Origin: a virus
Length of the DNA stretch: 22,946 bases
IMG/VR virus record: IMGVR_UViG_3300035698_002593
Span: 1-22,946 of that record
Reading direction: 5' to 3' (one strand)
Shown: piece after piece, positions 2,984 through 12,145 of the stretch
How positions within the stretch are numbered: position 1 is the first letter of the stretch
Layout of the letters: each line of letters opens with the position of its first letter
Position numbers and translations under genes: made by a program
Notes under the pieces: generated by a model
The model's input: the letters and a program-made list of their open reading frames with translations, nothing else
Databases searched by the model: none
What the model was told of the DNA's origin: nothing

Positions 2984-3402
2984 TATTTGAGGTATCCCAT
3001 CAATGTTATTGGATTGACACCGCAGATCCCTCGTGATGTATAGTCGGGATCCGGTTTGAATGCTTCTGTCTCGCAGATAACCAACGCACGAACACGGTTC
3101 GTCTGTTTCGTCTTATTGCCGATCCTCATTATAACGAACGCTTCGACTTGTACGCTTGCATCGCCCTTGATTGTTGCATTGATAATTTTCGTACTGAGGA
3201 TCTGCGTGTTTTTGATCATTGCACCGAACATGTCATTTGAGATACTGTTTGTAACCAACCACGACAGTTGACAATGCGCCATAAGGTCAGACCAATCACG
3301 ATTTTGCCATGCACGAAAGAAGAACTCGAACGCACGTTTAGATTTTTCAATCTGAGTCAACTGCATACTGCCATATATGCGTTCGGTTTTCATTTTACTC
3401 AT
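2983..3402 (-). CDS. Small protein between glycosyltransferase and tape measure; possible NTF2-like fold
   Basis: This 139-residue protein starts at an ATG that overlaps the glycosyltransferase stop (ATGA) and ends one base into the tape-measure start, so it is translated as part of the tail operon. After a basic N-terminus it has an aromatic helix (RAFEFFFRAWQNRDWSDLM), then alternating beta-like segments, and it ends with a PDPDYTSRGICGVNP stretch. The helix-then-sheet pattern with an aromatic FFxAWxxxDW motif resembles small NTF2/SnoaL-like proteins, but that is inference from pattern alone. Its position suggests a tail-assembly role or a partner of the neighbouring glycosyltransferase. 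I do not recognise a specific family. Confidence 0.75.
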   Translation of the reverse strand: MSKMKTERIYGSMQLTQIEKSKRAFEFFFRAWQNRDWSDLMAHCQLSWLVTNSISNDMFGAMIKNTQILSTKIINATIKGDASVQVEAFVIMRIGNKTKQTNRVRALVICETEAFKPDPDYTSRGICGVNPITLMGYLK

Positions 3403-4613
3403 ACCGCCACCGCCTTGCTGTCCGTCTTACTGTCCGGATCTTCGACCGTATTGTTGTTCCATACGTCCCACCGTAACGGTAACATGTTCTTATTCGAGTA
3501 GATCCCACTGTTCAGTAACGCACCGGCGCGTTTGTAATTTTCCTGTTCGTAATAGTAAATCGACAACCAATTCAGAATCATCGGCATACGTGTGCGCAGA
3601 TCCGACGGATATATGAGATCAGACATTGTTTTCGGTTGCGCATCGATCTCGATCACCTTCTCATAAAACGTCGCACATTTTATGTCGTCAACGTGCGTGT
3701 GTTTGTTTGCATGATAATCGCCGAACACCATGTACATTTCGGGAAGTTTGTCTGTGAATTTCTGTGCGAATTTGAACGTTTTTAATGCGTCTGACAGACG
3801 ATTCCGAGACAGGTACGCACTGATGATCACCGTCAGTCCGGTCAACATTGCGTACCAACCGTTTGAGTATTCCTCAGAACTTTTGACGGTCGATAAAACA
3901 GACAGATATTCTTCACCGTATTTGATCACCTGATCGTACTCGAGACAACCATGTGACCCGTATGCGTTGACGATATGTACGAGCGTCCGGAGATTGCGCG
4001 GATCGTCAAAGTAATCCAACAGTAACATCGGTATTGACCGGTTGTGTGTTTTTGAGTCGAGTAATTCCTTATCCTGCACATATCCGTAATGGTATAGTAT
4101 GATGTCACGAGCAACCACATACGGCGGATTTGTCACCGGCACGTTGTGAACCCTGCCGTAATACGCGAACGCACCGTCGTTTTGGAATAATCGCGGTTGC
4201 ATGACTTCCGAATATTGTTTGCGTTCCTTGTCGAGAAACGAACGAATGTTCAGAAATGCGGATCCCTGATTGCACTGATCTTTCGTGACAAGTTCGATTA
4301 ATCGATATATTGATTCCTGCCGTAATGCTTCGTCTGCGTCGATGATTAAGATCTTCTCACCGCACGCATGTTCGATTGACACATTCCGCGCATCAGAAAA
4401 TCCGTTCCATATAATGCCCCAAACTTTATCCGCGTATTGTCTTGCTATTTCAACTGTCTTGTCCGTGGATCCCGTATCGACAATCACCAACTCACACCAC
4501 TCGCGATGAATCAACGGTAACAACGAATCGAGACACCGCATTAAATTACGTTCTTCATCCTTGACGATCATACAGATCGACAACTTGAATTTGAATTTCT
4601 TCTGAGTTTCCAT
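3399..4613 (-). CDS. Family 2 glycosyltransferase with C-terminal helical repeats
   Basis: This 404-residue protein has a GT2 (GT-A fold) domain in its first ~120 residues: the strand LSICMIVKDEERNL, the VDTGSTDKT motif at 46-53, the NGFSDARN segment, and the metal-binding DAD at 92-94 in ILIIDADEAL. This is the arrangement of inverting glycosyltransferases that use nucleotide sugars. The region after ~190 is helical with paired-helix, TPR-like character. The SD sequence GAGGG lies ten bases before the ATG, and the stop overlaps the next gene by ATGA. A sugar-transferase between the tail chaperone and the tape measure is unusual; it could glycosylate a virion protein, the host envelope or a polysaccharide. 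Donor and acceptor cannot be read from the sequence. Family assignment is secure. Confidence 0.9.
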   Translation of the reverse strand: METQKKFKFKLSICMIVKDEERNLMRCLDSLLPLIHREWCELVIVDTGSTDKTVEIARQYADKVWGIIWNGFSDARNVSIEHACGEKILIIDADEALRQESIYRLIELVTKDQCNQGSAFLNIRSFLDKERKQYSEVMQPRLFQNDGAFAYYGRVHNVPVTNPPYVVARDIILYHYGYVQDKELLDSKTHNRSIPMLLLDYFDDPRNLRTLVHIVNAYGSHGCLEYDQVIKYGEEYLSVLSTVKSSEEYSNGWYAMLTGLTVIISAYLSRNRLSDALKTFKFAQKFTDKLPEMYMVFGDYHANKHTHVDDIKCATFYEKVIEIDAQPKTMSDLIYPSDLRTRMPMILNWLSIYYYEQENYKRAGALLNSGIYSNKNMLPLRWDVWNNNTVEDPDSKTDSKAVAV

Positions 4614-4626
4614 TAGTAATGTACCC

Positions 4627-4668
4627 TCATATTACGGTTTGAATTACGATTCATATTACGGTTTGAAT
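4627..4668. repeat. 18-bp direct repeat overlapping the tail-chaperone stop
   Basis: The 18-mer TCATATTACGGTTTGAAT occurs at 4627-4644 and again at 4651-4668, separated by six bases (24-base period). The copy at 4651-4668 contains the last codons and TAA stop of the frameshifted chaperone product. The other copy lies in the short leader in front of the glycosyltransferase gene, ending just before its SD sequence. It looks like a small tandem duplication; whether it has a function is unknown. Confidence 0.85.
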
Positions 4669-10535: not shown

Positions 10536-10591
10536 TGCTTACGACTCCCTGTTAAATTGTATGATTCCTAATTATCTAAATTGTCCACGTA

Positions 10592-11422
10592 TTACGAGAC
10601 ACGCAGAACACCTGTCTGTTGCAGTTTGTCGTTCTCTTTTAGAGGTACGACATTCTGTTCTGCGACGTTACGCCTTTGCGCTTCCGCCTTTGCGTTCTCC
10701 GTACGTGCTTCCTTGCGCTCACCGGACGGTTTGATCGGTGTCATATCACCGGCAGTGATCTTTTCATTGATCTGTGTTTGCGTATGTTCCTCAAACACTT
10801 TGCCGAGTCCTGCAACCTGTTCATCCATTTTTTCCGGATCGATGTTGAAACCATCCGCCAACGACGCAGGCAGTTTCTTTTCGGCGAGCTTCTTGACAAA
10901 CAGTGTCTTTGTCTCGTTGGTTGTCATCGATTCTGTCAATGTGTTGAACCCGTTACTTAACTTGCCGACCGTTTCGGTCAACTTTGTGACTGTATCGAGT
11001 ATCCCGTCCACACGGGGATCGCCGTTCTTGTCGGTGTTTTTGTTCACGTCAGGATCTCCATTGTTGTTGTCAGTATTGTTATCACCCTTACCCTTACCAT
11101 CATCGCCATCGTCGGTGATCTTCAACTGTTTCTTCCAATGTAAATCACGCGTTGCAACTGCACCTGACACACGTCGATCCGTTTCGGATGTGAGTCTGTT
11201 TTCATGCCAATCTTTCAGTCCTAAAGACTCGAGCAGACCGAGTGCTGATTCGTCAGTGATGCCGGTGTTCCCTGTATCAAACTCTTTAACCTTGCCGACT
11301 GTTGACTTGACGAAATCAGGTATCTCCGTTTCGCTTTTAACTTTGTCCTGTAATAATTCTGCGAGTCCCTCGGGTAAACCGGCTTCCTTTAAAGCCTTTT
11401 TTAACGCATCGAGTAACGGCAT
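10592..11422 (-). CDS. Scaffolding-like protein
   Basis: This 276-residue protein is charged and mainly helical. An N-terminal helix (MPLLDALKKALKEAGLPEGL), an Asp/Asn/Gly-rich linker at about 104-137, and a helical stretch of heptad type (ILDTVTKLTETVGKLSNGF) are followed by a basic, polar C-terminus. The pattern and location, upstream of the capsid gene, are those of phage internal scaffolds such as SPP1 gp11-like proteins, which direct capsid assembly and then leave. The SD GGGAG lies seven bases before the ATG, right after the sulfotransferase stop. No protease motif is seen in it. Confidence 0.75.
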   Translation of the reverse strand: MPLLDALKKALKEAGLPEGLAELLQDKVKSETEIPDFVKSTVGKVKEFDTGNTGITDESALGLLESLGLKDWHENRLTSETDRRVSGAVATRDLHWKKQLKITDDGDDGKGKGDNNTDNNNGDPDVNKNTDKNGDPRVDGILDTVTKLTETVGKLSNGFNTLTESMTTNETKTLFVKKLAEKKLPASLADGFNIDPEKMDEQVAGLGKVFEEHTQTQINEKITAGDMTPIKPSGERKEARTENAKAEAQRRNVAEQNVVPLKENDKLQQTGVLRVS

Positions 11423-11434
11423 TGTGTTTCTCCC

Positions 11435-12145
11435 TTAGAATAAATACTTGTACCGTTCGTAAAAGTGTTTCGCGACCGGTGCATGTTTGAGTATTGCTCG
11501 TTCTATCTCGTACAGTCCCACTGACGGCACGTTACCGTCACGAACGGTGACTTGTTCGTCTGATGGTTCTGCGTTGATTATACCGGCAATACGGTGAAAT
11601 AGATTTTGAGGATCTGCGATCAGTTCCTCGTATTTGATTAAGTGGATGTGATCGATGTATTGTGCGATGATTGATGCCTGTGCGTTCCAAATTTCCGCTT
11701 GCATTGTCAGTGTGTCGGATGTCTTGAAAGGGAATTGTCTGTATCGGGGATCCGTACTCGGATTGTGTTCGTTCAGTCCTGTACATTCGGATGATCTCCA
11801 TGATTTGATCGTGTACGCAGGATCCCGTACGACAACGAACACCGTGAAACATTTCTCGATAATACGATCAAGATGAATCAAATACGGCACGTTGACCTTT
11901 AAGATCACCGTTACGTTCTCATCGAACGGTTTATTGAACACAACTGACCGCTGAGTATTGTTGACATTGTACGGTAACGCACGACTAGACAGGATGTTCC
12001 TGCGGATGTGATGGAACGCCTGAGATAACATCGCCACGTTGTATACGACTTCATTGAAACAGATCGTGTTCTTGTACGTGTTCAACACTTTCGCGATGAT
12101 TGATGTGCCTGATCTCGGGACCCCTGTGATTACGACGTTCTGCAT
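11435..12145 (-). CDS. Sulfotransferase family protein
   Basis: This 236-residue protein has a P-loop-like PAPS-binding motif at residues 8-15 (GVPRSGTS), the 5'-phosphosulfate loop of the sulfotransferase family, and a second motif RDP at 107-109 with a serine at 115, matching the 3'-phosphate binding site. The downstream HLIKYEELIADPQNLFHRIA segment fits the family's YE.L..DP....... pattern. The enzyme would transfer sulfate from PAPS to a hydroxyl or amine acceptor; the acceptor is unknown. The start at 12145 is chosen because AGGG lies eight bases upstream. It sits in the head operon between a small protein and the scaffold, which is unusual. The family assignment is strong. Confidence 0.85.
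   Translation of the reverse strand: MQNVVITGVPRSGTSIIAKVLNTYKNTICFNEVVYNVAMLSQAFHHIRRNILSSRALPYNVNNTQRSVVFNKPFDENVTVILKVNVPYLIHLDRIIEKCFTVFVVVRDPAYTIKSWRSSECTGLNEHNPSTDPRYRQFPFKTSDTLTMQAEIWNAQASIIAQYIDHIHLIKYEELIADPQNLFHRIAGIINAEPSDEQVTVRDGNVPSVGLYEIERAILKHAPVAKHFYERYKYLF

Follow-up and report, generated by a model that had tools for sequence, protein, structure and literature searches.

Sugar-transferring and sulfating enzymes encoded among phage particle genes suggest tailored, sometimes sulfated virion glycans

Glycosylation of phage-particle proteins has so far been demonstrated in few systems. It is established in the mycobacteriophages, where phage-encoded glycosyltransferases modify the capsid and the tail tube of Che8 and its relatives (Freeman et al. 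2023, as cited in PMC11256854, PMC12619734 and PMC10877033). Here, we analyze a viral DNA of 22,946 bases (IMG/VR virus record IMGVR_UViG_3300035698_002593; we call this whole stretch “the window”), probably a fragment of a phage genome, in which a family 2 glycosyltransferase (GT2) and a sulfotransferase of the type using 3'-phosphoadenosine 5'-phosphosulfate (PAPS) lie among the head and tail genes. The likeness to the mycobacteriophages lies in phage-encoded glycosyltransferases for structural proteins, a role that in the window's clade is predicted from genes alone. The two groups differ in that the clade has a GmaR/SunS-type enzyme and keeps its genes in two slots of the structural operon, whereas in Maravista (F1, related to Che8) a passage of PMC11256854 places the glycosyltransferase genes outside the structural module, close to the genome's 3' end. 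The passages on mycobacteriophages in these sources mention no sulfotransferase. A more remote parallel is found in giant viruses (Megavirinae), for which clade-specific sugar biosynthesis is tied to capsid-fibril glycosylation in PMC10117803; those cassettes belong to eukaryotic viruses, consist of unrelated genes and involve no tailed-phage structural operon.

The enzymes closest to the window GT2 act on polypeptides. GmaR, the flagellin O-GlcNAc transferase of Listeria, likewise has an N-terminal GT2 domain followed by tetratricopeptide repeats (TPR) and is the closest sequence in the PDB, but it carries additional linker and antirepressor domains, is 637 amino acids long and has flagellin as its substrate (PMC9638930). 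It transfers N-acetylglucosamine (GlcNAc) to flagellin, and its TPR part has been proposed to bind that protein (PMC9638930); in FlmG, too, the flagellin-binding domain is an N-terminal TPR domain (PMC7591256). The best whole-length structural matches to the window GT2 are the glycocin S-glycosyltransferases SunS and ThuS (7msn, 7msp, 7msk), which glycosylate polypeptides directly, SunS being encoded by the SPbeta prophage. They differ from it in that identity is only about 20% and that they act on Cys of secreted bacteriocin peptides. ThuS also acts on Ser.

We propose that the window phage and its relatives encode a cytoplasmic pathway that glycosylates virion proteins and is capped by sulfation in the window's branch, a reading that we consider probable, if by no great margin of confidence. 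Compared with the known systems, its new variations appear to be a modular cassette spread over two slots, a GmaR/SunS-type initiator fixed in the tail genes, and sulfation. By Pfam and phrog matches, the minus strand of the window forms one late operon with the small and large terminase subunits, portal, a MuF protein with an intein, scaffold, decoration protein, capsid protein E, neck and tail proteins, tail chaperone and tape measure. The two enzymes, the genes that border their slots and two candidate acceptors are as follows:

12960..15962, minus strand: MuF-like head morphogenesis protein with in-frame intein (phrog_1657, Intein_splicing domain); upstream border of the head slot
11435..12145, minus strand: PAPS-type sulfotransferase, 236 amino acids (246 from an alternative ATG at 12175)
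10592..11422, minus strand: head scaffold protein (phrog_172, E 1.4e-6); downstream border of the head slot
7728..8855, minus strand: major capsid protein (Phage_cap_E; PF03864, E 1.2e-16); candidate acceptor and tree marker
5615..6130, minus strand: probable tail tube protein (phrog_6767 family, named from position); candidate acceptor
4847..5581, minus strand: tail assembly chaperone, gpG-like (by position and homology; phrog_12247 in one relative); upstream border of the tail slot
3399..4613, minus strand: GT2 glycosyltransferase, 404 amino acids (PF00535, E 2.4e-18)
2..2983, minus strand: tape measure protein (phrog_991, E 2.3e-44), incomplete at the window end; downstream border of the tail slot

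A first-pass annotation of the window had placed the GT2 between tail genes and the sulfotransferase between head genes, both co-directional with the morphogenesis genes and tightly spaced, and this holds throughout: the GT2 is flanked by chaperone and tape measure, the sulfotransferase by MuF and scaffold, all on the minus strand. The sulfotransferase ends 12 nt from the scaffold gene, and the GT2 shares 4 nt with the gene that follows it; this gene in turn shares 1 nt with the tape measure gene. The 233-nt gap ahead of the GT2 is mostly a -1-frame extension of the chaperone, which follows the heptamer A_AAG_GGA and stays open to 4656. Both enzymes have the codon usage of the rest of the operon (z 0.8 and 0.2); the usage of the intein (z -5.4) and of the gene at 16252-16566 (z -4.6) looks foreign.

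The assignment of the GT2 is firm at the family level, with 67 bits to PF00535 against a cut-off of 23.3, and its DTGSTD and DADE sequences are the nucleotide-sugar and metal-binding motifs of a GT-A domain. Across 33 sequences the core residues D46, G48, S49, D51, D92, D94, H156 and H175 are invariant, and ratios of nonsynonymous to synonymous substitution rates (dN/dS) of 0.06-0.24 indicate purifying selection. A profile built from four phage sequences finds GmaR (1.6e-29) and SunS (2.2e-12) as the closest PDB sequences and also matches a consensus TPR protein. In an AlphaFold2 model (pLDDT, the per-residue model confidence, 86.4; pTM, its global counterpart, 0.84), the GT-A domain spans about residues 10-175 and is followed by an all-helical, TPR-like domain at about 182-386. 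The model is best matched by SunS (Z 25.6) and ThuS (Z 24.0), with the next family at 17.2, and its helical C-terminal half matches the TPR domains of OGT and MamA. As the score to the SunS equivalog TIGR04195 is 48 bits, where the cut-off is 350, the GT2 is by sequence a relative of SunS and not SunS itself. Because sequence and modelled structure are nearest to GmaR and SunS/ThuS and include a TPR part, it most likely glycosylates a polypeptide directly.

To place the two genes in a wider context, relatives were gathered by scans with the capsid protein, terminase, GT2 and family 4 glycosyltransferase (GT4), which gave some tens of contigs in the closer clade; their open reading frames were assigned by script-based matching to reference proteins. 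The pooled contig set was chosen partly by GT2 or GT4 queries. The first-pass annotation had held that finding one gene on its own at random places would speak against its proposal. In this pooled set, each of the 27 contigs that cover the interval from chaperone to tape measure has a GT2-family gene there, and such a gene occupies the same slot in 19 of the 21 contigs retrieved by the capsid protein alone, the exceptions being L279 and L283. Phages whose capsid proteins are more distant, a Porphyromonas phage among them, keep the structural gene order and have neither GT2 nor sulfotransferase, and among 48 records of outgroup phages with the same structural module none matches PF00535 or PF00534. 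Other genes also enter this slot in relatives: several of them (L098:13875-14234 and homologues) encode, between chaperone and GT2, a C39-like cysteine peptidase that is absent from the window, and L099:11084-14116 encodes in the same interval a repetitive Ser/Gly/Tyr-rich protein of 1010 amino acids, which could be a glycosylation substrate.

The constancy of this position bears on an explanation that we regard as unlikely, namely that the enzymes alter the surface polysaccharide of the host late in infection (receptor masking, superinfection exclusion) and that the operon position serves only late expression. Phage glycosyltransferases that change serotype are well known (cited in PMC12619734), the GT4, methyltransferase and UDP-sugar (uridine diphosphate sugar) enzymes of the head slot look like capsule and O-antigen genes, and one relative has a PMT-like membrane protein, albeit under the Pfam cut-off. 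Yet the slots revealed no recognizable flippase, polymerase or membrane partner of GtrA type, the GT2 groups with the soluble polypeptide glycosyltransferases GmaR and SunS, its place between chaperone and tape measure does not vary, and a surface change at the time of lysis would be of little use in a lytic infection.

The sulfotransferase passes the Pfam cut-offs for PF13469 (32.7 bits against 27) and PF00685 (23.7 against 22). Two relatives, L276 and L300, encode homologues at 37-39% identity in the same head slot, directly after a GT4, so this gene too was found in one place; in L300 these two genes share 4 nt. The 5'-phosphosulfate loop PRSGTS and the 3'-phosphate motif RDPxYTIxSW are invariant in the three proteins. 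A single-sequence structure model reached a pLDDT of only 31, and phmmer found no relative in the PDB. Carriers are few: the gene was not found in the 46 records that the first scans with capsid protein and GT2 gave, the sulfotransferase alone as query gave no match in viral contigs, L276 and L300 surfaced only once the search was widened by the capsid protein, and a scan with the three-sequence alignment yielded no further carriers. The only match in an annotated phage, “Pseudomonas phage Y4” (L013, OQ572406.1), was rejected, as it reads as a bacterial chromosome with a polysaccharide locus. The literature searched, largely outside subscription papers, yielded no sulfotransferase in a phage structural operon.

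In relatives, the glycosyltransferases between MuF and scaffold are GT4s, a CgeB-like enzyme and a methyltransferase-GT2 fusion; the slot also holds methyltransferases, an FkbM methyltransferase and an epimerase. L101, L247 and L251 have genes for an aminotransferase, an oxidoreductase and an acetyltransferase there. GT4 and other glycan genes are present in all 18 pooled contigs that span MuF and scaffold, most of which had been selected by GT2 or GT4, and 23 of the 27 contigs that span portal and MuF have a UDP-sugar dehydrogenase between the two. The 319-amino-acid product of a gene in the slot of L206 neither matches Pfam nor resembles the GT4 family.

The varied contents of the head slot also invite the view that the two enzymes are unrelated passengers, the GT2 serving tail assembly and the sulfotransferase having landed by chance in a slot that takes insertions. 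The gap between MuF and scaffold does accept unrelated inserts, such as lysogeny genes in the Porphyromonas phage, and HNH or homing-type genes and signal-peptide proteins in relatives. Against this, the head slot of GT2-bearing phages is overwhelmingly filled with glycan enzymes, and no glycosyltransferase was found in phages that lack the GT2. The two slots also appear to change together. The capsid tree unites the window, L206, L276, L300, L279 and L283 in a supported clade of six, and two of these close relatives, L279 and L283, have neither the tail-slot nor the head-slot set; since they lie inside the clade, the loss (or gain) was joint. In a separate phage lineage, the tail module encodes a GT4-GT2 fusion of 704 amino acids with TPR (L265:5511-7625; L262-L268), and in L270 GT2 and GT4 are neighbors just after the capsid gene. 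The joint absence, the fusion and the GT4-sulfotransferase overlap speak against passengers, and we consider that explanation improbable. As a separate observation, a lineage with a phrog_212 capsid protein (L214, L210-L213, L270) carries a GT2 of the same family shortly after its capsid gene.

In the pathway that we favor, the enzymes would be made late in infection from the one late operon, together with the structural proteins. The tail-slot GT2 would initiate, its TPR domain holding the acceptor while the GT-A domain takes one sugar from a nucleotide-sugar donor and attaches it to a Ser/Thr side chain, or to Cys as in SunS. Head-slot enzymes may then extend or cap this sugar, the GT4 by adding a second sugar and methyltransferases by capping. 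Some relatives would supply their own nucleotide sugars through the UDP-sugar dehydrogenase, and the aminotransferase, oxidoreductase and acetyltransferase genes are of a type that serves diacetamido-uronic sugar synthesis. Sulfate from PAPS would be the cap in the window's branch. We infer direct action on a virion protein, the order of the steps and the sulfation of the glycan from these assignments. Candidate acceptors are the capsid, decoration or tail tube protein, and candidate benefits are masking from host factors, adsorption and stability. Somewhat more doubtful is the wider proposal that the clade possesses a modular virion-glycan locus over two operon slots, yielding sulfated particles in one branch, with the polypeptide glycosyltransferase of the tail slot constant and the extending and capping set of the head slot exchangeable.

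A different target, the bases of the phage DNA, would be expected if the glycosyltransferases served hypermodification. PMC12619734 cites Pyle et al. 2024 for virus-encoded enzymes of this kind. However, no hydroxymethylase of the thymidylate-synthase type was found in 19 clade records, in a search whose controls were positive, and the closest relatives of the GT2 modify polypeptides; we regard this explanation as very improbable. No Tet_JBP match was obtained in the clade either, with the control equally silent, so that this result is uninformative about absence.

Several points weigh against the proposed virion-glycan pathway. Glycosyltransferase families are poor predictors of the acceptor, and both the pathway and its candidate acceptors are here predicted from gene content. 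Several of the counts rest on contigs picked by GT2 or GT4. The sulfotransferase occurs in only three phages, and alongside the GT2 only in the window, because the contigs of L276 and L300 end before the GT2 position. L190 and L206 have the GT2 and no recognised glycan gene in the readable part of the head slot. The 22.9 kb of the window itself contain no GT4 or nucleotide-sugar gene, so the pathway in this phage may be shorter or completed elsewhere; the window being fragmentary, genes are possibly missing past either end. A possible acceptor site, Ser/Thr near the capsid C-terminus, is absent from the last residues in L279 and L283, but as other phages without glycosyltransferases retain such residues, this is only a hint. 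What the first-pass annotation had raised as possible, glycosylation and sulfation of virion proteins or action of both enzymes on one glycan, is partly supported: it gains from the conserved gene places, the sulfotransferase directly after a GT4 in two relatives, the joint absence of the slot sets and the GT4-GT2 fusions, while acceptor, sugar and actual sulfation remain matters of prediction. In the survey of co-occurrence, both gene places proved conserved and the pair itself was seen in the window only.

The remaining genes around the two slots are these:

12591..12815, minus strand: small gene (phrog_33375); homologues come after MuF in L300 and L279
12163..12579, minus strand: small protein directly upstream of the sulfotransferase
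9609..10535, minus strand: protein with a signal-peptide-like N-terminus; homologues (35%) in both sulfotransferase-bearing relatives
4656..4880, minus strand: predicted -1 frameshift product of the chaperone (heptamer at 4880-4874)
2983..3402, minus strand: small protein; homologues flank the GT2 in a good part of the relatives

The counterparts of the signal-peptide-like protein, L276:1814-2794 and L300:4373-5332, lie downstream of the scaffold gene, and other relatives have different signal-peptide proteins nearby, with a possible beta-helix in L204 and a LamG-like lectin domain in L190. The intein in MuF, at about 14106-15155, has low G+C, and the MuF inteins of L101 and L300 use another insertion site, about 20 residues upstream of the window's. 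Genes related to that at 16252-16566 occupy the head slot in L101 and L251, and the protein at 20782-21285, near the terminase, has related genes in L227, L242 and L245. As for the host, distant prophages in Chitinophaga and Pontibacter were all that a scan of genomes returned, and the best match in the Bacteroidota genome sample has the same operon without glycosyltransferases; no isolate of the clade was found.

Taken as a whole, the analysis suggests that one group of uncultured phages, with sugar enzymes among their particle genes, coat their own particles with tailored, sometimes sulfated sugars. Sulfated phage glycans, if real, would be new as far as the literature found shows. If the modular locus exists as proposed, it would give the virion coat the kind of diversity that O-antigen loci give bacterial surfaces, and phages would vary the surface chemistry of their particles as bacteria vary their capsules, through swappable modules that make, methylate and sulfate sugars.

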